The notes under the pieces are model-generated. The model worked only from the letters and a program-made list of their open reading frames with translations. It was not told the origin of the DNA and ran no database searches. A stretch of DNA of 59,239 bases from a virus, in the IMG/VR virus record IMGVR_UViG_3300034064_000298, positions 1 through 59,239 of that record; one strand, 5' to 3'. This document shows positions 5,892 through 56,136 of the stretch, piece by piece. The first letter of the stretch is position 1; each line of letters opens with the position of its first letter. Position numbers and translations under genes: made by a program.

Positions 5892-6206
5892 TTATAGGTA
5901 GTTCATGATTTCTGAGTTATAGCGCTGAGTTGTCTCAGCATCGAAACTCCAGTTTCTCCAGCTGAACTCTGCCAATGTCAGTCTTTTGACTCTTTTCGTT
6001 TCGTATTTTGGTCGAATGGTGACGCGTTTCTCAGTTATCTGAACGATCTCGCCAGTGTATGCTAGGTTGAAAGAATCGTAGATCGCTGTGTCGCCAATCT
6101 CAAACATCGTAGGAGTAGAACCATTTCGGCTTACGCTGATCCACTTTTTAGGCTCAAATTCAACCGTGTATGTCTCGCGACCGTCGCAGATAGTGATATT
6201 GGGCAT
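5892..6206 (-). CDS. Early small protein of unknown function
   Basis: 104 residues, not recognised, predicted beta-rich (alternating segments such as YTGEIVQITEKRVTIRP, reminiscent of a small SH3-like barrel). Start chosen from CTGGAGAAAGAAA-ATG. It carries the same promoter-leader module (TTGACA, TATACT, ACACCCATAGA leader) found repeatedly 45 kb away in the MORN-like array, so it belongs to the same early regulon. Confidence 0.75.
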   Translation of the reverse strand: MPNITICDGRETYTVEFEPKKWISVSRNGSTPTMFEIGDTAIYDSFNLAYTGEIVQITEKRVTIRPKYETKRVKRLTLAEFSWRNWSFDAETTQRYNSEIMNYL

Positions 6207-6239
6207 TTTCTTTCTCCAGTTGTTTGTCTCTATGGGTGT

Positions 6240-6267
6240 AGTATAGCAGGTGGCGAAGAGGTGTCAA
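6240..6267 (-). promoter_or_regulatory. Sigma70-like early promoter
   Basis: TTGACA (6262-6267), 16-base spacer, TATACT (6240-6245). Drives the gene starting at 6206; followed by the reiterated leader ACACCCATAGAGACAAAC. Confidence 0.75.
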
Positions 6268-6270
6268 ACT

Positions 6271-6471
6271 TTATTTTGAAGAATTTACATCCCAAATGTT
6301 TGGGACTTCCTTGAACTTGCGACCGGAGCGATCAATATTCATTCCTTTTGGTAGTAACCGTAGTTCATTGTTTGCCACGTAGGCATATATTTTAGTTTTG
6401 GAGTCCTCGAAAATATAGATGTGGTTTGGAGTGCTACCAGGCCATTGTGTTATTTCTTGGAGTGCGATCAT
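6271..6471 (-). CDS. Small protein of unknown function
   Basis: 66 residues, unrecognised, mixed beta/alpha (HIYIFEDSKTKIYAYVANNE). Its ATG overlaps the TGA of the preceding 44-residue gene (ATGA), so translation is probably coupled. The stop codon lies a few bases before the next promoter's -35 box. Confidence 0.7.
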   Translation of the reverse strand: MIALQEITQWPGSTPNHIYIFEDSKTKIYAYVANNELRLLPKGMNIDRSGRKFKEVPNIWDVNSSK

Positions 6472-7329: not shown

Positions 7330-8900
7330 GAGTATTTTACAAGATATTGAAGACGGCGGAGCGAGGACTCATTGAGTGCATCTTCGTCCGGTTCAGGCAG
7401 TGACTCAGTTTCGTCACTCGGCTTTTCTCCTGCTACCTTTTTATTGAGTGGCGCAGGTTCAGCTTTTGGAATATCCAACTTTTTAGGAACGTCGGGAGAT
7501 TTTTCTTTTGCTACGGTAGATTCTTTTTGGTGATATGCAAATGCTCCAACGTCCTCAAGTTCTTGTTTCATTTTCTTCATGCTGCTTACCATACCCTTCA
7601 TGAGAGTTCGATCGTAGGCATCTGCGTTTTGCAATTCTTTCGTTTTGTCTTTTATACCAGAGGACATAGTGGTGAAGACTTTTTCAAACTTTTTATCCAG
7701 TTTAGGTGGAAGATTCATTCGGATAGATTTGTATGCTTGGAATAGAGACGAATATTCGTCTTTGAGTTCCGCTAGTATCTTCAGCGAGTCTTGTCGCTTT
7801 TGCGATCTGATTTCCATTTCTTCGCCTGTTCTAGCACCTTTTAGTCCGAGTGCAATGTAACCATCAGGATAAGCAAATGTTCCTCTACCTCTACTCAGTA
7901 CCGGCTGCATTGCAGCATTGTCTGGAATAGTATCACCGTCGACGAAGTTGCAGTACTCGAGGGTATGAACGTTCTTAGTGTTGATTATAAGAACGCTATC
8001 CCATCCACTGTTTGCCTTATTCATGTTGACTACGGAACTTGACCATACCTTATCGGCGTCGCTTGAACCCAACGACTTGAGAACCTTTCTAGCCATTTCG
8101 GACGAGTCTTTGACCTTGTAAATCTTGGAAATGTAGTCGTTCATCAATCTGACTGCAGCGTCTTCGCCCTTGCTTTTTTCTAGCTTTTTCCAAAACTCTG
8201 GAAACCATCCTTTGGTTAGTCGAGGCGATTTATCCGTGTCTTCCAGCTGCCATCCATTCTTGTTAGCTATCTCTTTCAGACCATCGTTTAGCGTGTCAGC
8301 CACGCGACTCTCCGCGCCCTGGCCCGCCTTTTCATCACTAGCTGAACTCTTCAGTCCACTACCTGTGCTTTTTATCTCCAGGTACCAGCCATCCAAACTG
8401 ACATCAGCACCTTCCGCACTCGGAACCTTAGAAGCATTCAAGCCATAGATCAGAAAGAACAGCTCACCTGCCCCCTGTCCACTAGCTGTAGCCGCAGAAT
8501 ATTGCATGATATCGGGAAGGGTTTCTTGAAACACCTCATTGCTTCGCATCTTGGATGGAACCAACTCTAGGATACTTCCCTTGCCGGATTTCTCGAAGTG
8601 CGAAGGTCCTATCTTCATGCTGGGATCGTTCAGCAGCACAAAGTATTCCTTTAGACTTTTATATCCAAAATGCTTGGAGTTGATAGTCCTATTGAAGAAG
8701 TCCCAACTCTTAGAGTCAAGATTGCTCAACGCCTGTTTTTTGATCAAGCTGATATTATCATCGACTTCGGACCTACGAAGATGCGTCTCGATGCTACTCA
8801 GAGTTTTTGCATCCTCGATATCGTCCAACTTGCTTATTAGCTCGATGAGTTCAGACTTAGATATTTCAAATAAATTGTACAACTTATGATCTCCATTCAT
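7326..8900 (-). CDS. Late-promoter PD-(D/E)XK-like nuclease candidate
   Basis: 524 residues from the ATG at 8900, chosen because a GATAAATA late motif ends five bases before it; there is no Shine-Dalgarno, so other starts (TTG at 8915, or TTG six codons downstream behind GGAG) remain possible. Around residues 141-185 it shows GQGAGELFFL (E146), D166/D170, then YLEIKSTG (E175, K177): the order E...D...ExK of PD-(D/E)XK nucleases. The rest is helical, with a low-complexity Pro/Lys/Glu tail. It lies immediately downstream of a Dam methylase. A late-expressed nuclease-like or virion-associated protein is inferred; exact function unknown. Confidence 0.6.
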   Translation of the reverse strand: MNGDHKLYNLFEISKSELIELISKLDDIEDAKTLSSIETHLRRSEVDDNISLIKKQALSNLDSKSWDFFNRTINSKHFGYKSLKEYFVLLNDPSMKIGPSHFEKSGKGSILELVPSKMRSNEVFQETLPDIMQYSAATASGQGAGELFFLIYGLNASKVPSAEGADVSLDGWYLEIKSTGSGLKSSASDEKAGQGAESRVADTLNDGLKEIANKNGWQLEDTDKSPRLTKGWFPEFWKKLEKSKGEDAAVRLMNDYISKIYKVKDSSEMARKVLKSLGSSDADKVWSSSVVNMNKANSGWDSVLIINTKNVHTLEYCNFVDGDTIPDNAAMQPVLSRGRGTFAYPDGYIALGLKGARTGEEMEIRSQKRQDSLKILAELKDEYSSLFQAYKSIRMNLPPKLDKKFEKVFTTMSSGIKDKTKELQNADAYDRTLMKGMVSSMKKMKQELEDVGAFAYHQKESTVAKEKSPDVPKKLDIPKAEPAPLNKKVAGEKPSDETESLPEPDEDALNESSLRRLQYLVKYS

Positions 8901-8905
8901 TCTGG

Positions 8906-8913
8906 TATTTATC
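8906..8913 (-). promoter_or_regulatory. T4-type late promoter motif
   Basis: GATAAATA followed by CCAGA then ATG; the preceding TGA of dam is part of it (TGATAAATAC). Confidence 0.65.
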
Positions 8914-9829
8914 AAAAAATCAGTAATCTGTCAGTGGGTGATTGTTCATGGACGAAATTTCTAACGAAATTTTCTTTTACATTGTTCAGGCTTTTGCCTC
9001 TGCCTGCTGTATATTTTACATCAAATAAATGAATCTCGAAACCTTTTAGATGCTCTTCGAAGAAACCATCGCCAATTTCTTTGTTACTCAGCGATACGCT
9101 TGCTCCAAGAGAGTCGGCGTATTTGAAAAATTCACACAATCTGATTTGCTCGACATCTCCAAACCCCTCAGAGGTATAGATAGTAGAGCTGTCACGATAA
9201 GGAGGATCAAAGTACACATAGGAATCGCTGGTGATATAGTCCTTAACTCCTTCAAAGTCACCATTTAGTATGGTACACTTATCGTTGAAGAACTGCGAGT
9301 GAGAGCGTATCAATGAGGTATTGATGAACGGTCTAGTTTCTGCTTGTACGCCAGGGGGTGTAGCATAACGACCTCTAGAGTACGAGTACACTTTCCACCA
9401 ACCATTGAAGCTGGTTTTCATCATGAAATACAAATGACTGCTAACTTCTGTAGGTGTCATATTTTCCCAGTCGTTGATATATCTCATCTTGAGACTGGTA
9501 TAAAAAGCATGTCGTTTGATCTTGCGCTCTGCCGTGTCCTTATCATTGATATTCAAATATTCTTCCTCGAACGACTGACAAAGACGAAGAAATTCATCCA
9601 CGTCGTCTCTTATGGTACTATATAACTGGATCAGCTCTGAGTTTTGATCGTTTATTACAAATTTGGCATCTGGATAGCGGTCGGTGACCCAATGAGATAT
9701 TGCGCCACCGCCGTAGAATGCGTCAATGAATGTTGTGAACTTTTTAGATGGCCAAAATAAATCGCCATACTTCTCCTTCATTTTTCTTTTGCCGCCCGTC
9801 CATTTGAATAAAGGCTCCAATTTTGCCAT
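8912..9829 (-). CDS. dam: DNA N6-adenine methyltransferase (Dam family)
   Basis: 305 residues. N-terminal LFKWTGGKRKM (7-17) and FIDAFYGGGA (34-43) match the SAM-binding region of D12-class methylases, SFNGWW (140-145) is Dam-typical, and the catalytic motif IV DPPY is at 208-211. T4-like phages use Dam to methylate their own DNA (GATC in the classic case) against host restriction; the target cannot be read from sequence. It is in the transcript with the exported protein genes upstream. The start has AGGA spaced eight bases from ATG. Confidence 0.92.
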   Translation of the reverse strand: MAKLEPLFKWTGGKRKMKEKYGDLFWPSKKFTTFIDAFYGGGAISHWVTDRYPDAKFVINDQNSELIQLYSTIRDDVDEFLRLCQSFEEEYLNINDKDTAERKIKRHAFYTSLKMRYINDWENMTPTEVSSHLYFMMKTSFNGWWKVYSYSRGRYATPPGVQAETRPFINTSLIRSHSQFFNDKCTILNGDFEGVKDYITSDSYVYFDPPYRDSSTIYTSEGFGDVEQIRLCEFFKYADSLGASVSLSNKEIGDGFFEEHLKGFEIHLFDVKYTAGRGKSLNNVKENFVRNFVHEQSPTDRLLIF

Positions 9830-13675: not shown

Positions 13676-15565
13676 TTACGCTGCTTCAGTGAACTGTGCA
13701 TCGACGACAGCATCATCGGCGGGGGAGGCACTCTCCGTCTCGTTTTTAGGAGTTGCATCCCTAACGATCTTACTAGCATCGAGAAGCTTTTCCGTTGCTT
13801 TCCTGATCTGCTGAAGGTCGTCACCAGACGTTGATTCCTCGACCTCCGAAAGGGCAGTCTCGATCTGATCAATATCGTCCGAACTAAGCCTGTCCTTGAC
13901 TTCAGAGAGTTCCTTCCTGATTTGATGAACATGTTGCTCTGCATGGTTTCTTGCCTCGATCAGTTCTTTCAGTTTCTTGTCAGACTCTGCGTTCATTTCA
14001 GCTTCATTTATCATACGCTTAATTTCAGCATCTGTCAAGCCAGAATCACTCTTAATTGTGATTTTATTTTGCTTACCAGAGGACTTGTCCTTTGCAGATA
14101 TATTCATAATGCCGTTGGCATCGATGTCAAACGTGACTTCAATTTGTGGTGTACCACGAGGCGCAGGTGGAATACCATTCAGGTCGAACTTGCCGAGTTG
14201 TTTATTGTAGCTGAACAATTCGCGTTCGCCCTGTGCTACGTTGATCGTCACAGCAGCCTGGTTATCCTCGGCTGTTGAAAATACCTGACTTGCCTTGGTA
14301 GGAATAGTGGTATTCTTTTCGATGAGTTTGGTAAATACACCTCCCATCGTTTCGATGCCTAAGGACAGAGGAGTCACGTCAAGTAACAATACATCTGTTT
14401 TTGTACCACCCAATACCGCGCCCTGTACCGCAGCACCAGCAGCAACAGCCTCATCTGGGTTCACATCTTTGCGAGGTGCCTTGTCAAACAGCTTTTCAAC
14501 TGCTTCTTGGACCTTGGGCATTCTAGTTTGCCCGCCAACCAATATAACCTCGTCGATATCTTTGGACGTAACTCCAGCATCTTTCAGTGCAGTTTTGCAT
14601 GGCGCAATGGTTCGCTCGATCAGATCTTCTACCATCGACTCGAACTTGGAGCGCGTGATGGTGATATCTAAATGCTTAGGTCCACTTGCATCCGCGGTAA
14701 CGTATGGTAGATTGATGCTTGTTTGTTGCGTACTCGATAGCTCAATCTTGGCTTTCTCTGCGGCATCTTTCAGACGTTGGAGCGCGAGCGTGTCATTCTT
14801 CAGATCGATGCCAGAGTCTTTCTTGAACTCGCTTACCAGATAGTCCATGAGGCGCTGGTCGAAGTCTTCACCGCCAAGCGCAGTGTCACCGTTGGTGGAT
14901 AGAACCTCAATCTGCTTTTCGCCATCGACGTTAATGATATCAATGATGGAGACGTCGAAGGTGCCGCCGCCTAAATCCCAGACCGCAATCTTTCGATCTT
15001 TTTTGTCTGCTTTGTCGACACCGTAGGCTAGAGCAGCTGCAGTAGGCTCATTGATGATGCGTAGAACCTCGAGTCCTGCTATTCTTCCAGCGTCCTTAGT
15101 AGCTTGACGCTGACTGTCGTTGAAATATGCAGGTACCGTGATAACCGCCTGTGTTACCTCGACTCCAAGATAGTCTTCGGCAGTCTTCTTCATCTTGCGT
15201 AAGACTTCAGCGGACACTTGCGGTGGGGCCAGTTCTTGTCCATTGGCTTTTACCCAAGCATCACCATTCTTCGCTTCGACAATCTCGTAAGGCATGAGGT
15301 CGATGTCTTTCTGGACCGCTTCTTCGGTGAACTTACGTCCGATCAAACGCTTTACGGCGTACAGGGTGTTCTTGGGGTTTGTTACTGACTGTCTTTTTGC
15401 GGAAGCACCTACCAATACTTCGTTGTCCGAGTATGCGATGATGGATGGAGTGGTTCTTGCGCCTTCTGCATTTTCGATGACTCGAGCGGAGCCATTTTCA
15501 AGAATTGCGACGCAGCTATTTGTAGTCCCGAGATCGATTCCCAGGATTGGGGTTGATTTGCTCAT
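13676..15565 (-). CDS. dnaK: Hsp70 chaperone DnaK
   Basis: 629 residues from the ATG at 15565, which has AGGAG eight bases upstream and starts [16 protein letters not shown]; a longer frame upstream lacks a ribosome site. The ATPase domain has the phosphate-1 loop [15 protein letters not shown] motifs [10 protein letters not shown] and [12 protein letters not shown], and linker [16 protein letters not shown] complete substrate-binding domain and helical lid follow (to about residue 600), with an acidic tail ending FTEAA. The protein is full length. No DnaJ or GrpE is seen, so host co-chaperones would be used. A role in folding virion proteins or in replication (as for host DnaK with phage lambda) is inferred. 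Confidence 0.96.
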
Positions 15566-15602
15566 TTTGTAGTCTCCTATTTTGTAGCAAGATTTAGTTA
15601 TA

Positions 15603-15620
15603 GGCCCGAAAATCGGCACC
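15603..15620 (-). promoter_or_regulatory. Shared chaperone-leader element (dnaK copy)
   Basis: GTGCCGATTTTCGGGCC in the dnaK 5' leader, nearly the same as GTGCCGATATCGGGC before hsp20; short stem CCGA/TCGG. Confidence 0.35.
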
Positions 15621-49126: not shown

Positions 49127-49345
49127 TTATGACCAGCGCAGCAGAAAGGTAGCCAAGTCTTTTCTTGTAAGGTAGAATACGGAGCCCATGTAGGTGTGAG
49201 GTATTCCACTGCTGAACAGCCAGTCTCGTATCTTACTGATTGTGTCTTTTTCACATTCGAGTACCTCGACTCTGTGAGAGTAGGGATACCTCCCACTCGT
49301 TCTGTATCCTAGGTCAGTTATACTGAGTTTCATGTGGCTACTCAT
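49127..49345 (-). CDS. Unknown small protein
   Basis: 72 residues from the ATG at 49345, which overlaps the previous gene by eight bases; another ATG four codons on is also possible. Mixed alpha/beta (HRVEVLECEKDTISKIRDWLF, VFYLTRKDLATFLL). A second open frame over the same bases is judged a shadow because this frame has coupled start spacing. Not recognised. Confidence 0.6.
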   Translation of the reverse strand: MSSHMKLSITDLGYRTSGRYPYSHRVEVLECEKDTISKIRDWLFSSGIPHTYMGSVFYLTRKDLATFLLRWS

Positions 49346-49517
49346 CGCTGTCACCTATCACAATGCCTGGAGTGCAGGTTAGCTTCTTCAAATCTTTGTT
49401 GTGCTGCTCTTTGAGAGCGATCAAATTCAACATCTGCTTGCACTCTTTCTCGGTGCTGAACTCACGGGCAAGAACGTCAGGGGTAGATACAAGATACATT
49501 GCCAAAATCCAACTCAT
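49338..49517 (-). CDS. 59-residue protein, paralogue of the 21603 product
   Basis: CAGGAGAAAGAAG-ATG. MSWILAMYLVSTPDVLAREF aligns with MEWFLILSL.SSDDVLVKKF of the 21603 product, then STEKECKQML with SKQECQVYL. Early promoter module directly upstream. Function unknown. Confidence 0.65.
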   Translation of the reverse strand: MSWILAMYLVSTPDVLAREFSTEKECKQMLNLIALKEQHNKDLKKLTCTPGIVIGDSDE

Positions 49518-49550
49518 CTTCTTTCTCCTGTTGTTTGTGTCTATGGGTGT

Positions 49551-49578
49551 AGTATAGCAGTTATTGCGAAACAGTCAA
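49551..49578 (-). promoter_or_regulatory. Early promoter module
   Basis: TTGACT (49573-49578), 16 bases, TATACT (49551-49556), then ACACCCATAGACACAAAC. The -35 lies in the last codons of the MORN-like gene upstream (R-L-T-V-S-Q-stop). Confidence 0.8.
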
Positions 49579-50217
49579 CCTTTTATTGAACTCTTCTTCG
49601 GTCATTCGAACTCCTTTCACGTACCATTGTTTATCGCCGTTTGTGAATTCAACAGCAGGCCCATCCTCTCGGTGTATTTCGCCGTTTATGGCCCACAATT
49701 TGCCATGTTTAGCTTCCATGGCAGGTCCATCTTCTCGATGCTGTTTGCCGTTTACCCAATACTCTTTGTGTCCATCAGGATACTCGACGGCAGGTCCATC
49801 TACACGATGACGTTTGTCATTTAGGTACCACTTTTTGGCGCCATCTGCTTCCTCCATAGCAGGTCCATCTACGCGATGAAGTTTGCCGTTTTGATACCAC
49901 TCGTTTGTACCCCAAGAATATTCGATAGCAGGTCCATCTACGCGATGAAGTTTGCCGTTTCGATACCACTCCTTGGTGCCATCTGCATCCTCCATAGCAG
50001 GTCCATCTATCCTGTGAAGTTTGCCGTTTCGATACCAAAACTTGCTGCCATCTGCCCATTCAATCGCAGGTCCATCTACTCGATGAAGTTTGCCGTTTAG
50101 CCGCCACTCTTTGCAGCCATCTGCGTATACAACAGCTGGGCCATCTTCGTTGTGAAGTTTGCCATTGAGGCGCCACTCTGATCTTCCAGCTGTTTCTGAT
50201 ATGGTATATTCGGACAT
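49561..50217 (-). CDS. MORN-like repeat protein, 8 units
   Basis: 218 residues from the ATG at 50217 (GGAG plus seven bases; an ATG six bases earlier is too close). Eight units of about 23 residues of the type WYxNGKLHRVDGPAxExADGTKE, a MORN_2-like repeat, then the family tail MTEEEFNKRLTVSQ. Such repeats make elongated beta sheets that bind partners or membranes. No signal peptide or membrane helix. First and longest of nine relatives up to 55359. Confidence 0.85.
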   Translation of the reverse strand: MSEYTISETAGRSEWRLNGKLHNEDGPAVVYADGCKEWRLNGKLHRVDGPAIEWADGSKFWYRNGKLHRIDGPAMEDADGTKEWYRNGKLHRVDGPAIEYSWGTNEWYQNGKLHRVDGPAMEEADGAKKWYLNDKRHRVDGPAVEYPDGHKEYWVNGKQHREDGPAMEAKHGKLWAINGEIHREDGPAVEFTNGDKQWYVKGVRMTEEEFNKRLTVSQ

Positions 50218-50252
50218 CGTCATTCTCCAAGATGTTTTGTGTCTATGGGTGT

Positions 50253-50280
50253 AGTATAGCAGTTATCAAGGAACAGTCAA
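50253..50280 (-). promoter_or_regulatory. Early promoter module
   Basis: TTGACT (50275-50280), 16 bases, TATACT (50253-50258); the -35 lies in the upstream gene's KRLTVP codons. Confidence 0.8.
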
Positions 50281-50808
50281 CCTTTTGTTGAACTCTTCTT
50301 CAGTCATTTGAACTCCGTTCACATACCACTTTTTATCGCCGTTTGCATACTCAACAGCTGGTCCATCTACTCGGTGTCGTTTGCCATTTACCCAATACTC
50401 TTTGTTGCCATAGGACTCCCATCCTACTTTGCCTGGTGGAACTTCGATAGCTGGGCCATCTTCTCTATGACATTTGCCATCCACAAACCAAATTTTGGTG
50501 CCATCTGCAAGATCGAAAGCTGGTCCATCTACTCGGTGATATTTGCCATTTACCCAATACTCTTTGGTGCCATCAAGACGCTCAAACGATGGTCCGTCCA
50601 CGCGATGACGTTCTCCATTCAACCACCATTCTGTGGTGCCATCTGCACCTTCGACTGCAGGGCCGTCTTCTCTGTGACGTTTGTCATTTACCCACCATTC
50701 CTTTCTGCCATCTGCCCACACCAAGGCTGGTCCGTCTTCTCGATGTCGTTTGCCATTGAAAAGCCACTCCGTCATTGTATCAGTTTCTTTTTTGGTATAT
50801 CCGATCAT
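50266..50808 (-). CDS. MORN-like repeat protein, 6 units
   Basis: 180 residues from the ATG at 50808 (AGGAG, seven bases). Starts MIGYTKKETDTMTEWLFNGK; six NGK.HR.DGPA units, one carrying an inserted PPGKVGWESYGN loop, then the tail QMTEEEFNKRLTVP. Same promoter module. It differs from its neighbours mostly in the edge residues of each unit, which suggests variation of a binding face. Confidence 0.85.
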   Translation of the reverse strand: MIGYTKKETDTMTEWLFNGKRHREDGPALVWADGRKEWWVNDKRHREDGPAVEGADGTTEWWLNGERHRVDGPSFERLDGTKEYWVNGKYHRVDGPAFDLADGTKIWFVDGKCHREDGPAIEVPPGKVGWESYGNKEYWVNGKRHRVDGPAVEYANGDKKWYVNGVQMTEEEFNKRLTVP

Positions 50809-50839
50809 CGCCAATCTCCTAGCTGTTTGCGTTTATGGC

Positions 50840-50867
50840 AGTATAGCAGTCATCAAGGAACAGTCAA
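50840..50867 (-). promoter_or_regulatory. Early promoter module
   Basis: TTGACT (50862-50867), 16 bases, TATACT (50840-50845). Confidence 0.78.
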
Positions 50868-51161
50868 CCTTTTATTGAACTCTTCTTCAGTCATTTGAAC
50901 TCCGTTAACGTACCATTCCTTTCTGCCATCGGCCCAATCGATCGCAGGTCCATCCTCTCTGTGAGGTCTGCCGTTTACCCACCATGATTTAGAGCCATCT
51001 GCGTATTCAGCCGCAGGTCCATCTTCTCGATGTTGTTTGCCGTTCATGAACCAATACTTACTGCCATCAGCCCATTCAATCGCAGGTCCATCTTCTCTGC
51101 CTAGTTTACCGTTTAGATACCAAAACTTGGTGCCAGCTATTTCTTGCATATATGCAGTCAT
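50853..51161 (-). CDS. MORN-like repeat protein, 3 units
   Basis: 102 residues from the ATG at 51161 (AGGAG, seven bases). MTAYMQEIAGTKFWYLNGK, three units with REDGPA, family tail MTEEEFNKRLTVP. Its -10 box (TTCACT) is poorer than in its neighbours, so expression may be lower. Confidence 0.82.
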   Translation of the reverse strand: MTAYMQEIAGTKFWYLNGKLGREDGPAIEWADGSKYWFMNGKQHREDGPAAEYADGSKSWWVNGRPHREDGPAIDWADGRKEWYVNGVQMTEEEFNKRLTVP

Positions 51162-51195
51162 CATCATTCTCCTGTTGCTTTACGACTATGGGTGT

Positions 51196-51223
51196 AGTGA
51201 AGCAGTCATCAAGGAACAGTCAA
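51196..51223 (-). promoter_or_regulatory. Early promoter module, weakened -10
   Basis: TTGACT (51218-51223), 16 bases, TTCACT (51196-51201) instead of TATACT. Confidence 0.6.
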
Positions 51224-51225
51224 CC

Positions 51226-51390
51226 TTATTTTACTTCTCTGGTTGAACCGATTTCCCAATCCTCGACCTTGTACATTGCCTTCATGAGTTGCCTTGCTCT
51301 GACCATATCCGGTGCAGATACTGTGACGTCGATTCTCCCTACGTAATTGGATGTTTTTATGGTTACGGGTGCGGTCCATTGTTTGTTCAT
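51226..51390 (-). CDS. 54-residue protein of unknown function
   Basis: MNKQWTAPVTIKTSNYVGRI, then DVTVSAPDMVRARQLMKAM and a stop just before the -35 of the next module. The pattern (strand, strand, helix) resembles small phage proteins with a YVG.I.V.A motif. Ribosome site weak (GAGAAAGCAC). Confidence 0.55.
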   Translation of the reverse strand: MNKQWTAPVTIKTSNYVGRIDVTVSAPDMVRARQLMKAMYKVEDWEIGSTREVK

Positions 51391-51403
51391 GTGCTTTCTC
51401 TGT

Positions 51404-51730
51404 TTAGATGATTTTTACTTTGTATCCGAGCATCTTCTCGATCTCGGCTAGAGTTAGCTCAACTGGTTCTGATGTTACTGCCTTTAGATTCTGCTGAAGA
51501 ACGCTCTTGGCGAGTCGAAAAGGTAAGGAGAAGTCAGTCTCGCTGTGAATAGGCGGCGTTACGTTCACCCATTCTTTATCATACTCCGAGAATCTCTGTA
51601 GCTTTTTCGTTGCCTCATCCCACTGCAGTTTGGTTCCTTGTTTGAACGTGATTTTCCAGCAACCCGCTGATATTGCAAATGAATTGGTTACGACGTAATC
51701 ACCTGAGGTGGGAAAGGTACGAGTAGTCAT
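51404..51730 (-). CDS. Unknown protein
   Basis: 108 residues, GGAG before the start. Beta-rich first half (GDYVVTNSFAISAGCWKITF), then a helical end (VELTLAEIEKMLGYKVKII). Not recognised. Downstream gene in the unit that starts with the 51998 promoter. Confidence 0.65.
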   Translation of the reverse strand: MTTRTFPTSGDYVVTNSFAISAGCWKITFKQGTKLQWDEATKKLQRFSEYDKEWVNVTPPIHSETDFSLPFRLAKSVLQQNLKAVTSEPVELTLAEIEKMLGYKVKII

Positions 51731-51770
51731 TGTTTTCTCCTAGCTGTTTGTGTCTATGATGTCGTCTAGC

Positions 51771-51998
51771 TTAGTATGCCAACACCTCAACTACCTGTGT
51801 CAGGTATGCCCAATGAGAATCCTTTGTGCCGATATCGATGTAGTCGATGCCAGGCTGGCCGTTTTTGATGTTGCTGTCGGTATAGGTTACCTTAGCTTGT
51901 CTTGCGATACCGTTGCCAAAGTTGCCGCGTACCATCACGAGACTGCCTTCGCGGATGTCCTTGAGTCCTACTGCTTTGGTTTTCTTGAAGGTCATCAT
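51771..51998 (-). CDS. Small beta-rich protein of unknown function
   Basis: 75 residues. LKDIREGSLVMVRGNFGNGIARQAKVTYTD looks like a small barrel (SH3/KOW-like). First gene behind an early module. Not recognised. Confidence 0.65.
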   Translation of the reverse strand: MMTFKKTKAVGLKDIREGSLVMVRGNFGNGIARQAKVTYTDSNIKNGQPGIDYIDIGTKDSHWAYLTQVVEVLAY

Positions 51999-52031
51999 CT
52001 TCTTTCTCCAGTTGTTTGTCTCTATGGGTGT

Positions 52032-52059
52032 AGTATAGCAGTTATTGAGAAAGTGTCAA
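52032..52059 (-). promoter_or_regulatory. Early promoter module
   Basis: TTGACA (52054-52059), 16 bases, TATACT (52032-52037). Confidence 0.8.
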
Positions 52060-52065
52060 CTCTTT

Positions 52066-52335
52066 TTAGTCCCATACGCGATGTTTTTCAGCAACCCATT
52101 CCCTACCATCGTAGTCTTCTATCTGCCATTCAACGTCGTCTGGTACTTCCACGATCTTCAAAGAGGCAAATTGACCACCAGCCACTAGCCCTAGTTCCTC
52201 TACAATCTGAACCAGATATGGATCAGCTCTATCATGATGACGATCTACGTTTTTACCTGTCAATTCAAAGTATCTTTTAGTAGCTTGTTTGGATAATCCA
52301 AATCCACCATACTGAGCGTTGATTACTATTTTCAT
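52066..52335 (-). CDS. Conserved phage domain protein, paralogue of 16844
   Basis: 89 residues: VINAQYGGFGLSKQATKRYFEL, DPYLVQIVEELG, ASLKIVEVPDDVEWQIEDYDG, EWVAEKHRVW. This is the same domain that follows the zinc ribbon in the 16844 protein. The family is common in phages (from memory) and has no known activity. Early promoter module in front. Confidence 0.75.
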   Translation of the reverse strand: MKIVINAQYGGFGLSKQATKRYFELTGKNVDRHHDRADPYLVQIVEELGLVAGGQFASLKIVEVPDDVEWQIEDYDGREWVAEKHRVWD

Positions 52336-52369
52336 TCTTCTTTCTCCAGTTGTTTGTCTCTATGGGTGT

Positions 52370-52397
52370 AGTATAGCAGTTATTGAGAAAGTGTCAA
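52370..52397 (-). promoter_or_regulatory. Early promoter module
   Basis: TTGACA (52392-52397), 16 bases, TATACT (52370-52375). Confidence 0.8.
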
Positions 52398-52403
52398 CCT
52401 TTT

Positions 52404-52865
52404 TTACCAGCTAGATCGATAAGTGACTGTCCAGTTCCAGCCTATATCCTCCCCTAGGTCTTCTAGGAACGATCTAAGCTCTTGTTTCGTGAGTTCAAGA
52501 TCTGCCCAATACCCTTCCGTCATTTCGGAGGAGCCAAAAAAGAATCCCTCGCATGGTGGCAACAACTCGGCGGCCAGCTCCTTTGAGCCTCCTATCTTTT
52601 CTAGGGTACGAAGTAGATCATCCAAATGTTCCAAGGTCACCTCGTATGCCCTACAGTCATCTACGCCATTCTGTACGTTCTTGACAAACCAGTTATGAAT
52701 GGCATTTGCCTTGCGCCAATACATTACTTGATACTCTAGACCTGTCAGCTGCATGCCATACCGAGTGTTTTCCGTGAGTTCCGCTATTTTCTCAATCAAC
52801 TCCTGGTCTTTGGAATTTAGGCTGCTGAGGTATTTGCGAGCGTGAAGATACATATCAAGGCCCAT
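52404..52865 (-). CDS. Conserved MGLDMYL-type phage protein
   Basis: 153 residues with the hallmarks of a widespread phage/bacterial family: MGLDMYLHARKY, YWRKANAIHNWFVKNVQNG, DDCRAYEV and LLPPCEGFFFGSSE. Function of the family is not known to me. Early promoter module (with TACACT -10) in front, so it is likely made soon after infection. Confidence 0.75.
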   Translation of the reverse strand: MGLDMYLHARKYLSSLNSKDQELIEKIAELTENTRYGMQLTGLEYQVMYWRKANAIHNWFVKNVQNGVDDCRAYEVTLEHLDDLLRTLEKIGGSKELAAELLPPCEGFFFGSSEMTEGYWADLELTKQELRSFLEDLGEDIGWNWTVTYRSSW

Positions 52866-52892
52866 TTTCTTTCTCCTGTTTATTTGAGGTAT

Positions 52893-52920
52893 AGTGTAGC
52901 AGTTATTGAGGAAGTGTCAA
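52893..52920 (-). promoter_or_regulatory. Early promoter module
   Basis: TTGACA (52915-52920), 16 bases, TACACT (52893-52898); the -35 is in the KRLTLPQ codons of the gene upstream. Confidence 0.75.
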
Positions 52921-53085
52921 CCTTTTATTGAACTCTTCTTCGGTTATTTGTTCTCCGTTTACCCACCACTCTTTGGTGCCATCAGATCGCTCAACCGCCG
53001 GGCCTGTCGTGTGATGAAGTTTGCTATCTCGATACCGCTCTATAGTGCCATCAGGATAGATGTTTATGGAATGTCCACTCGCCAT
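52903..53085 (-). CDS. Minimal MORN-like protein, 1 unit
   Basis: 60 residues: one degenerate unit (YRDSKLHHTTGPAVERSDGTKEWW) followed by the complete family tail ITEEEFNKRLTLPQ. No promoter of its own; it follows the 53095 gene by nine bases. Looks like a reduced family member kept mainly for its tail, or decaying. Confidence 0.7.
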   Translation of the reverse strand: MASGHSINIYPDGTIERYRDSKLHHTTGPAVERSDGTKEWWVNGEQITEEEFNKRLTLPQ

Positions 53086-53094
53086 ATTACTCTC

Positions 53095-53310
53095 CTACTC
53101 GGCAGTCGGCGAGAGAACTTGAACTAATGAATCGTCGTACCACCCTTCAAAGGTGTAGTAGTTGAATGATGCGACCAGATTGCCTTTGGCAAAACCTAGC
53201 CAGCCATTGATGCGACCGTTACTGTCGTCAAACAACTCTTCATGATCGAAGGTGTCGTCGTCGAACATATCAAAGAAGTCGTCTTCATCATTGTATATTT
53301 CAGTAATCAT
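53095..53310 (-). CDS. Very acidic small protein
   Basis: 71 residues, N-terminal half dominated by Asp/Glu/Phe (DEDDFFDMFDDDTFDHEELF), C-terminal half beta-like (GWLGFAKGNLVASFNYYTF). The acidic part could mimic DNA, as anti-restriction proteins do, but it is short and no family is recognised. Early promoter module in front. Confidence 0.65.
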   Translation of the reverse strand: MITEIYNDEDDFFDMFDDDTFDHEELFDDSNGRINGWLGFAKGNLVASFNYYTFEGWYDDSLVQVLSPTAE

Positions 53311-53343
53311 TGGTGTTCTCCAGCTGTTTGCGTCTATGGGTGT

Positions 53344-53371
53344 AGTGTAGCAGTTATCGAGAAAGTGTCAA
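53344..53371 (-). promoter_or_regulatory. Early promoter module
   Basis: TTGACA (53366-53371), 16 bases, TACACT (53344-53349); the -35 is in the last codons of the upstream gene (E-L-T-L-S-R-stop). Confidence 0.75.
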
Positions 53372-53656
53372 TTCTTCTTCGGTTATTTCAACTCCGTTTA
53401 TATACCAGTACTTGGTGCCATCTGCATATTCCATGGCAGGCCCATCTACGCGATGAATTTTTCCGTTTACCCACCACTCTTTGTATCCATCCTCCCATTC
53501 AACCGCAGGCCCATCTTCTCTGTGCAGTTTGCCGTGTCTATACCAATACTTACTGCCATCTGCATATTCAATCGCAGGTCCATCTTCACGATGAAGTTTG
53601 TCGTCTAGGTACCAAAACTTGTCGCCGTTTATTTCTTTGGTAGTATATCCGGTCAT
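53354..53656 (-). CDS. MORN-like repeat protein, 3 units
   Basis: 100 residues: MTGYTTKEINGDKFWYLDDK, three units with (E/V)DGPA, then a shortened tail EITEELTLSR that lacks the FNKR residues yet keeps the codons forming the next -35 box. Same start module GGAGAAAGAAG-ATG. Confidence 0.83.
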   Translation of the reverse strand: MTGYTTKEINGDKFWYLDDKLHREDGPAIEYADGSKYWYRHGKLHREDGPAVEWEDGYKEWWVNGKIHRVDGPAMEYADGTKYWYINGVEITEEELTLSR

Positions 53657-53689
53657 CTTCTTTCTCCAGCTGTTTGCGTCTATGGGTGT

Positions 53690-53717
53690 AGTATAGCAGT
53701 TATTGAGAAAGTGTCAA
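53690..53717 (-). promoter_or_regulatory. Early promoter module
   Basis: TTGACA (53712-53717), 16 bases, TATACT (53690-53695). Confidence 0.8.
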
Positions 53718-54083
53718 CCTTTTATTGAATTCTTCTTCGGTTATTTGTTCTCCATTTATCCACCACTCTTTGTTGCCATCTGCGTATTCGACGGCCGGTC
53801 CATCCTCTCGTTGGATCTCACCGTTTATATACCAGAATTTGGTGCCATCATAGATTTCAATCGCAGGTCCGTCCTCACAATGTACTAGGCCGTTTAGATA
53901 CCAAAATTTGGTGCCATTGGGGTATTCAATAGCAGGTCCATCCACTCGATGTCGTTTGCCGTTTATATACCAATACTTGTTGCCATCTGCCCATTCGATC
54001 GCAGGTCCATCCTCTCGATGGAGTTCGCCATCAAGGCGCCACTCTGTTTTATACTCGTCTGTAGATATAGTATATCCGGTCAT
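53700..54083 (-). CDS. MORN-like repeat protein, 4 units
   Basis: 127 residues. MTGYTISTDEYKTEWRLDGE, four units, tail QITEEEFNKRLTLSQ. Its first 38 residues are almost the same as those of the 54485 gene, at the DNA level too, so one was copied from the other recently. Confidence 0.85.
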   Translation of the reverse strand: MTGYTISTDEYKTEWRLDGELHREDGPAIEWADGNKYWYINGKRHRVDGPAIEYPNGTKFWYLNGLVHCEDGPAIEIYDGTKFWYINGEIQREDGPAVEYADGNKEWWINGEQITEEEFNKRLTLSQ

Positions 54084-54116
54084 CTTCTTTCTCCAGCTGT
54101 TTGCGTCTATGGGTGT

Positions 54117-54144
54117 AGTATAGCAGTTATTGAGAAAGTGTCAA
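54117..54144 (-). promoter_or_regulatory. Early promoter module
   Basis: TTGACA (54139-54144), 16 bases, TATACT (54117-54122). Confidence 0.8.
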
Positions 54145-54441
54145 CCTTTTGTCGAACTTTTCTTTGGTCATTTGTTTTCCGTCTATGAACCACTTCTTGG
54201 TGCCATTTGCTCGTATGACCGCAGGTCCATCTACCCTGTGAGGTTTGCCGTCTATATACCACTCTTTGGTGCCATCTGCAGCTTCAAACGCAGGTCCATC
54301 TACTCTGTTAAGTTTGCCGTTTCTATACCACCTCTTGGTGCCACTTGCAAGTTCAACCGCTGGGCCGTCTTCTCTGTTAAATTTGCCGTCTAGGTACCAA
54401 AACTTGTCGCCGTTTATTTCTTTGATAGTATATCCGGTCAT
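54127..54441 (-). CDS. MORN-like repeat protein, 3 units
   Basis: 104 residues: MTGYTIKEINGDKFWYLDGK, three units, tail QMTKEKFDKRLTLSQ (a divergent version). N-terminus nearly the same as the 53354 protein. Same promoter and ribosome module. Confidence 0.83.
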   Translation of the reverse strand: MTGYTIKEINGDKFWYLDGKFNREDGPAVELASGTKRWYRNGKLNRVDGPAFEAADGTKEWYIDGKPHRVDGPAVIRANGTKKWFIDGKQMTKEKFDKRLTLSQ

Positions 54442-54474
54442 CTTCTTTCTCCAGTTGTTTGCGTCTATGGGTGT

Positions 54475-54502
54475 AGTATAGCAGTTATTGAGGAAGTGTC
54501 AA
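54475..54502 (-). promoter_or_regulatory. Early promoter module
   Basis: TTGACA (54497-54502), 16 bases, TATACT (54475-54480). Confidence 0.8.
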
Positions 54503-55144
54503 CCTTTTGCTGAACTCTTCCTCAGTTATTTCAACTCCGTTTAACCACCATTCTGTGGTGCCATCTGCCCATTCGATCGCAGGTCCATCCTCTCTGTTAA
54601 GTTTGCCGTTTCTATACCACCTCTTGGTGCCATCTGCCCATTCAGATGCAGGTCCATCTTCTCTGTGTTTTAAGCCGTTTACCCACCATTCTTTGGAGCC
54701 ATCTGCGTATTCAGCCGCAGGTCCATCTTCTCTGTGTTCTTTGCCGTTTACCCACCATTCTTTGGAGCCATCTGCCCATTCAACAGCAGGTCCATCTTCT
54801 CGGTGTCGTTTGTCGTCTATATGCCAAAACTTGCTGCCATTTGCCCATTCGACCGCAGGTCCATCTTCTCTGCCTAGTTTACCGTTTAGATACCAAAACT
54901 TGGTGCCATCTGCCCATTCGACCGCAGGTCCATCTACTCTGTGTCGTTTGCCATTTAGATACCAAAACTTGCTGCCATCTGCCCATTCAGATGCAGGTCC
55001 ATCTTCTCTGTGTTTTAAGCCGTTTACCCACCAATACTTGTTGCCATCTGCCCATTCGATCGCAGGTCCATCCTCTCGATGGAGTTCGCCATCAAGGCGC
55101 CACTCTGTTTTATAGTCGTCTGTAGTTATGGTATATCCGGTCAT
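54485..55144 (-). CDS. MORN-like repeat protein, 8 units
   Basis: 219 residues from the ATG at 55144 with GGAGAAAGAAG in front; a longer frame has no start signal. Eight units; the second and seventh both read VNGLKHREDGPASEWADG, a sign of internal copying. Tail EITEEEFSKRLTLPQ. It has no promoter directly upstream and follows the 55165 gene by 20 bases. Confidence 0.85.
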   Translation of the reverse strand: MTGYTITTDDYKTEWRLDGELHREDGPAIEWADGNKYWWVNGLKHREDGPASEWADGSKFWYLNGKRHRVDGPAVEWADGTKFWYLNGKLGREDGPAVEWANGSKFWHIDDKRHREDGPAVEWADGSKEWWVNGKEHREDGPAAEYADGSKEWWVNGLKHREDGPASEWADGTKRWYRNGKLNREDGPAIEWADGTTEWWLNGVEITEEEFSKRLTLPQ

Positions 55145-55164
55145 CTTCTTTCTCCGCTTATGTC

Positions 55165-55359
55165 TTAGAATTTTTCGGTAGCAGGAGCGCCAACTGCATG
55201 TTTCATGCCATAGGTGTACCACTCTTTGTAGCCATCGGCTTGTGCTGTCGAGGTGTCTTCAGCCCATTCGGTAGCAGGTTCAATATCAGTGTAGGGGTTA
55301 GGTCCGTAGCCTGCAATTTCATACTCGTCGATTTCGTAGGTAGTGATTGCTGCTTTCAT
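55165..55359 (-). CDS. Degenerate MORN-like protein
   Basis: 64 residues. Unique N-terminal part (MKAAITTYEIDEYEIAGYG), then one worn unit ADGYKEWYTYGMKHAVGAPATE, clearly derived from ADG.KEW...GKHR.DGPA. Lacks the family tail. Early promoter module in front; heads the transcript of the 8-unit gene. Confidence 0.7.
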   Translation of the reverse strand: MKAAITTYEIDEYEIAGYGPNPYTDIEPATEWAEDTSTAQADGYKEWYTYGMKHAVGAPATEKF

Positions 55360-55392
55360 TTTCTTTCTCCAGTTGTTTGTCTCTATGGGTGT

Positions 55393-55420
55393 AGTATAGC
55401 AGATGTTGAAGGAGTGTCAA
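55393..55420 (-). promoter_or_regulatory. Early promoter module
   Basis: TTGACA (55415-55420), 16 bases, TATACT (55393-55398); last module of the array, after the glycosyltransferase stop. Confidence 0.8.
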
Positions 55421-55425
55421 CCTTT

Positions 55426-56136
55426 TTAGCGCCAATTTTCAAAAATAATTTGATCATTGATCTGATGTGGCTTAGGCTCGCCGTGGCAAATGATGACGGA
55501 TGTGTCGTTCACGTTTGGAGCAGCGTTGACGTCTCTATAACTCTTCAGTGCGAAGTCGTATCCACCTTGTACCACTTCCCAGCGCCAGGACTTCACTCCA
55601 CCTTCAAAAAATCGTCGACTACTAGTAGGTATAACGTCCGATAAGTAATCCTGATCTCCCTTATACATTCCGGTAATAGTAGGTAAATGGCATTTAGAGA
55701 ATCTCTTCCATATATGATGATATACAGTAGTGTCCCACCACATCATACTCGAGTTGATACCCATGAAGTTAGGTCGCCATAATGCTTTGAAGTCCTTTAT
55801 AGCCCATAAGCAATGAGTAGGTAATTGCCAAACCCAATCAATACTATCGGTTATAACGACATCGAGATCAAAGTATAATAATGGGCCTGAGTAATGCTCG
55901 GAGTTGAATAACTGCATCTTATACCACCAGGCATACTTATCTTGAATCCCATTCCAGGGTATCAGCGAGTGTTTTACCATATACTCAGGTACATCTCTAG
56001 ATTCTTCGGTATATACATGGAATACTACCGGCACAGTTAGGTTTCTACTTACCATATTGTACAGTTTATCCACATATTCCCAGGAATACCCATTCCCATG
56101 TATTACGCAAGCTATGTTTATATTGTAATCATCCAT
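55426..56136 (-). CDS. Glycosyltransferase-like protein (GT-A, DxD)
   Basis: 236 residues from the ATG at 56136, chosen because GCTAAATA ends five bases before it. INIACVIHGNGYSWEYVDKLYNM at the start and LLYFDLDVVITD with the metal-binding DLD make a GT-A nucleotide-sugar transferase likely; later KGDQDYLSDV and ICHGEPKPH fit the acceptor side. Divergent from another glycosyltransferase at 56164. Role: modifying host surface glycans or the virion. Confidence 0.75.
   Translation of the reverse strand: MDDYNINIACVIHGNGYSWEYVDKLYNMVSRNLTVPVVFHVYTEESRDVPEYMVKHSLIPWNGIQDKYAWWYKMQLFNSEHYSGPLLYFDLDVVITDSIDWVWQLPTHCLWAIKDFKALWRPNFMGINSSMMWWDTTVYHHIWKRFSKCHLPTITGMYKGDQDYLSDVIPTSSRRFFEGGVKSWRWEVVQGGYDFALKSYRDVNAAPNVNDTSVIICHGEPKPHQINDQIIFENWR

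Follow-up and report, generated by a model that had tools for sequence, protein, structure and literature searches.

A repeated promoter block as the probable source of the conserved protein tails in a phage MORN-like gene cluster

Why should the small MORN-like proteins encoded by one virus end in nearly the same few residues, and why should the codons for these residues also spell part of a promoter? The question is raised by viral record IMGVR_UViG_3300034064_000298, of which we analysed a stretch of 59,239 bases (the window). Within a run of small minus-strand genes, the window holds an array of promoter blocks, many of which overlap the ends of genes for MORN-like proteins. The original prediction had treated the shared C-terminal peptide, the promoter it encodes, the leader and the ribosome site as a single portable module. 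Our analysis of the sequences indicates that the unit that is copied is very probably the block itself, and that the part of the MORN tail following the residues EEFN is a frame-dependent by-product of promoter DNA. The record is a fragment; it carries a UvsW-like helicase, a DnaB-like helicase, a primase and a ribonucleotide reductase, and the replication gene set of the window is T4-like. A second virus contig (L008) reproduces the array over 13,530 bp with 7 mismatches, no gaps and 0 mismatches inside the blocks, which makes misassembly of a single record an improbable source of the array.

The block measures about 68 bp and has the form AAAAGG-TTGACA-N16-(TG)CTATACT-ACACCCATAGA-leader-GGAGAAAG. 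Its parts are an A-tract, a sigma-70-type promoter (TTGACA, 16 bp, extended -10 TGCTATACT), a leader of fixed sequence (ACACCCATAGA...) and a ribosome site. Taken over 21 copies, which come from the window and from other virus contigs, its consensus is AAAagGTTGACACTT.cTCaa.A.cTGCTATACTACACCCATAGA.aCAAACAaCtGGAGAAAgaa. Twelve blocks lie on the minus strand between 49,551 and 55,420 (5.9 kb), eight of them in the tails of MORN-like genes and four outside any MORN tail. There are 10 exact matches to TTGAC-N17-TATACT on the minus strand and 0 on the plus strand of the window; a first-order Markov null gives 0.025 expected occurrences per strand. Scores against the sigma-70 consensus reach 10-11 out of 12 in 11 of the 12 blocks of the region, with TGn ahead of the -10; the block at 51,223, which stands in a non-MORN context, has a degraded -10 (TTCACT). 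The architecture of the block is that of a predicted strong sigma-70-type promoter, and we infer that these promoters are active early with the host RNA polymerase.

Repeated DNA of this kind could also owe its conservation chiefly to a role in recombination or as an RNA element, and not to promoter activity. Conservation of the leader is largely near promoter level and the repeats span the borders of duplications, both of which would suit such an element. The strongest constraint, however, falls on TTGACA and TGCTATACT at their 16 bp spacing, downstream of which lie a ribosome site and start codon, the arrangement of a promoter; the RNA folding of single blocks is mostly no stronger than that of shuffled sequences, and terminator-like stems are absent from the blocks as well as from between the minus-strand genes of the region. 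We consider this explanation scarcely credible. A function of the block as a three-frame stop (TGA in the -35, TAA in the spacer and TAG in the leader) was also considered and was rejected as a general property; stops in all three frames are present in 11 of the 13 blocks of the window, and frame 0 is open for about 100 bases in the blocks at 55,420 and 6,267.

The MORN-like genes, g1 to g8, read directly through the start of the promoter. As predicted, the Leu-Thr codons of the tail are the TTGAC of the -35 box, and this is true in frame for all eight genes; their stop codons fall within the spacer between the -35 and the -10, starting 12 or 15 bases past the first T of TTGAC. All eight lie on the minus strand: g1 (49561-50223, 220 aa) ends in KRLTVSQ, g2 (50266-50808, 180 aa) and g3 (50853-51167, 104 aa) in KRLTVP, g4 (52903-53085, 60 aa) and g8 (54485-55144, 219 aa) in KRLTLPQ, and g6 (53700-54083, 127 aa) and g7 (54127-54441, 104 aa) in KRLTLSQ. 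The tail of g5 (53354-53656, 100 aa) is shortened by the in-frame loss of the FNKR codons. The endings are thus LTVSQ once, LTVP twice, LTLPQ twice, LTLSQ twice and LTLSR once, and AAAAGG stands directly before TTGAC in seven of the eight tails. Several details of the original prediction needed correction: its general tail form KRLT(V/L)(P/S)Q stands, apart from the two LTVP tails that lack the Q; a TATACT -10 just after the stop is present in most cases, with TACACT in 2 of the 8 MORN-tail blocks; and the short-tailed member does keep its Leu-Thr codons, in a tail that reads ITEEELTLSR instead of ITEELTLSR.

Codon usage in the tails follows the promoter sequence. In the tails, arginine is AGG in 7/7 cases and leucine is TTG in 8/8, against 4/62 for AGG and 3/36 for TTG in the remainder of the same genes, counts to which we attach no probability since the MORN paralogues share descent. 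The choice of tail codons is evidently not a matter of chance. MORN tails of other phages with EEFN..ELT use CTTACT or CTGACG at this place, never TTGAC. Past TTGAC the peptide varies, first between V and L, then between S and P, and then among Q, R or no residue, as is expected of a free spacer. These tails are compatible with a dual-coded module, the version put forward by the original prediction, in which selection acts jointly on a conserved tail peptide and on the promoter: TTGAC serves as in-frame Leu-Thr in every one of the eight genes and is retained even in the short-tailed g5, and KRLT lies within a predicted C-terminal helix of g6. Joint selection accords poorly with a peptide that varies past LT and even loses its Q to an earlier stop, and the copies of the block that are not read as a MORN tail, described below, make it very unlikely.

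The blocks at 52,397 and 52,059 come after non-MORN genes whose stop codon sits 9 bases ahead of TTGAC, and these blocks are not read as part of the upstream protein. The promoters of these two non-coding copies are nevertheless identical at 28/28 positions to those of the coding copies at 53,717 and 54,144, whereas the 39 bases upstream of the four promoters match at only 9-11 of 39 positions. The block was also found beside other genes in the virus contigs L009, L012 and L064-L067, and in L009, L064, L065 and L067 no MORN gene lies upstream of it. Two tandem MORN genes of L066 end in ...GIELKS-stop and ...GIEIKG-stop, with the stop codon TGA placed inside TTGAC and the block consequently met in another frame; the same TGA-in-TTGAC stop is used by three genes of L012 and one of L009. 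Identity of the block between the window and other viruses is about 0.25 (background) upstream of -12, rises to 0.65-0.97 from -6 to +6, remains elevated as far as about +58, apart from lower values in the spacer, and returns to about 0.3 (background) after +60. No copy of the block was detected in bacterial genome contigs, or by blastn in isolated phages.

The tail peptide shows no such distribution. The MORN genes of the window end 6-7 residues past EEFN, a stretch that corresponds to frame 0 of AAAAGG-TTGACA-spacer. EEFN or EEFI is frequent in the MORN-like proteins of other phages as well, and most of these relatives continue past it with varied residues, often at least 20, that have no counterpart in the window genes. 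A codon-blind search of the viral collection for EEFNKRLT returned 9 other loci, of which 0 were MORN genes. Across the related sequences it is the promoter DNA that is kept and not the tail peptide. Because the block is independent both of MORN genes and of reading frame, the tail after EEFN appears to be mainly translated promoter DNA. The portable module of the original prediction accordingly survives as promoter, leader and ribosome site in one block, and the protein tail drops out of it.

The tails of other phages raise a further possibility, namely that the -35 box was born by synonymous change in an older coding tail (...ELTL...) and that the finished promoter then spread. ELTL or ELTV does occur after EEFN, or elsewhere in the same tail, in MORN genes of other phages (L016-L018, L038 and L062). 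In several virus contigs, on the other hand, the block stands beside non-MORN genes, and most of these copies share both the start TTGACACTY and the leader. This spread beside unrelated genes argues against a coding-sequence origin of the -35 box. The MORN genes of L066 moreover end differently (FTAAEI...) and are followed by the block out of frame. We regard an origin in a coding tail as very unlikely.

The proteins themselves have a recognizable predicted fold. An AlphaFold structure of g6, built from 11 sequences, has a predicted local distance difference test score (pLDDT) of 94 and a predicted template modelling score (pTM) of 0.82. The top four PDB matches to the model are MORN1 proteins, those of Toxoplasma and Trypanosoma first, with modest TM-scores of 0.31-0.47, and g6 is thus predicted to consist of tandem short beta repeats that fold like MORN1. 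Pfam MORN_2 scores 19.8 bits on g1, below its cut-off of 29.6, and DUF6745 scores above its cut-off. No function for the MORN-like proteins emerged from PHROGs, Pfam or NCBIfam, and a search of solved structures by sequence gave no match. In L012, an open reading frame (ORF) of 584 aa (7989-9743) has the appearance of a head-to-tail fusion of several MORN-like genes, its repeat groups being joined by linkers such as EEFNEATPKKSTSDD.

Three points weigh against reading the tail as a by-product of promoter DNA. Because the paralogues are not independent, their codon counts make the evidence look stronger than it is. An ELTL motif is also present in the MORN tails of some phages, and the Leu-Thr could descend from an older coding tail of this kind. 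In the g6 model, finally, a predicted C-terminal helix (residues 116-125) includes EEFNKRLT, and confidence drops toward the end of the protein, to a mean of 73 over the last seven residues; KRLT may therefore cap the fold or otherwise matter to the protein. As KRLT lies inside this predicted helix, the residues that follow LT are those for which a by-product is best supported.

With the tail taken as translated promoter DNA, the cluster could have formed as follows, in an order of events that we infer. The cassette, about 68 bp of DNA, would have been copied ahead of many small genes in the phage lineage, and recombination would have fused one copy to a MORN-fold gene directly behind its EEFN codons, in place of the former end. 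Translation would then have continued through AAAAGG and the -35 box and stopped within the spacer, so that the protein acquired the tail KRLT(L/V)..., and tandem duplication of gene and cassette would have produced the MORN family. Selection would act on the promoter DNA and not on the tail peptide. Promoters that overlap the end of the preceding gene are common in compact genomes. The present case is unusual in that all copies of a single gene family have such an overlap, most likely as a result of amplification of the genes together with the block.

Traces of such duplication are present in the window. Over their first 90 nt, g8 and g6 are 97% identical and g7 and g5 are 88% identical; the blocks after g6, g7 and g8 are 97-100% alike, and that after g5 is 84% alike. 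The order g8-g7, g6-g5 with blocks between is best read as the duplication of a two-gene unit. A minus-strand gene of L066 (5095-5313) carries the block and 27 coding-start bases identical to those of g5 and then continues into an unrelated protein, so that a moved unit can include first codons. This gene has the MORN-type start MTGYTTKEI and apparently joins the block and first codons to another gene. The expectation that cassettes are duplicated and shuffled with their expression signals is borne out by the two-gene duplication and by the L066 gene, and movement of cassettes together with these signals is well supported by the sequence comparisons.

Closely spaced promoters raise the question of how neighbouring genes are kept apart. 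Since no terminators lie between the genes, transcription from upstream promoters should continue into the genes downstream. In several blocks (in the window, L066 and L009) the spacer, for example CTTTCTC, which in MORN genes is read as tail, is complementary to the ribosome site GAGAAAG of the driven gene. The mean unpaired probability of the ribosome site was 0.65 in RNAs from the gene's own start, 0.44 in read-through RNAs and 0.52 with shuffled spacers (z -2.8). Complementarity of spacer and ribosome site in own versus permuted pairs gave p 0.03. Both results come from related sequences and are driven by a few blocks. Read-through RNA carrying the spacer might thus have its ribosome site masked, whereas RNA from the gene's own promoter, starting past the spacer, would be translated, an insulation without terminators that we consider doubtful. 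If true, masking would be a simple way of insulating neighbouring promoters.

Similar arrangements have been described in other viruses. The PeSL elements of T4-type phages are mobile regulatory cassettes of an early promoter and a stem-loop, for which a role in gene shuffling is proposed (Arbiol et al. 2010, doi 10.1093/gbe/evq006, as described in PMC3950731). The block resembles them as a repeated early-type promoter cassette ahead of many small variable genes, with copies before unrelated genes in the window and in L009, L012 and L064-L067. Unlike PeSL, the blocks of the window lack a stem-loop or terminator, receive upstream genes that run into the promoter, and carry a fixed leader and ribosome site; lacking the stem-loop, the block is not classed as PeSL. 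T4 early promoters have a near-consensus -35, an extended -10 (TGn) and a -10 for the host sigma-70 polymerase, and UP elements have been described for them (PMC2988021). The blocks share the near-consensus -35/TGn/-10, the many copies and an A-rich stretch before the -35, and their early use is a prediction. Most ORFs in one genome region of the haloarchaeal virus HGTV-1 are preceded by a shared motif, for which roles in both transcription and shuffling were proposed (PMC3950731). The block is likewise one element found ahead of many genes; the HGTV-1 motif consists of a TATA-like box of archaeal type and an inverted repeat, whereas the block is a bacterial-type promoter.

If the block is the copied unit, a variable phage gene cluster can grow by copying a short regulatory block and not a protein, and the block would change how its neighbouring genes end and, in some cases, their first codons too. 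Short conserved tails of phage proteins may then be translated promoters and should be checked for this before they are called functional motifs.

The blocks of the window are all on the minus strand, and the genes that they drive are predicted from sequence and position. The block in the tail of g1 (49518-49584) would drive the ORF 49338-49517, and those in the tails of g2 (50224-50286) and g3 (50809-50873) would drive g1 and g2, respectively. The weak block with TTCACT (51168-51229), after the non-MORN gene 51226-51390, would drive g3. Two further blocks with promoters identical to the coding copies follow the non-MORN genes 52066-52335 (block at 51999-52065) and 52404-52865 (block at 52336-52403, with 6/6 of AAAAGG). 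The block in the g4 tail (52866-52926) would drive the non-MORN gene 52404-52865, and that in the shortened g5 tail (53311-53377) the non-MORN gene 53095-53310; blocks in the tails of g6 (53657-53723), g7 (54084-54150) and g8 (54442-54508) would drive g5, g6 and g7, respectively. The last block of the array (55360-55426), after a non-MORN gene ending at 55426, would drive the ORF 55165-55359, whose 64 aa include a decayed MORN-like stretch (DGYKEWYTYGMKHAVGAPATEKF) and which is perhaps a remnant of the family. A block far from the MORN cluster (6206-6273) follows a non-MORN ORF. Among the other genes of the window, a non-MORN gene at 51404-51730 ends in ...ELTLAEIEKMLGYKVKII, a C-terminal motif like the ends of MORN-like genes in L016, L017 and L038, and endings of this type form a C-terminal segment common to different protein bodies. 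At 13676-15619 the window carries a phage gene for a full-length Hsp70 (DnaK-like; Pfam E 5e-259).

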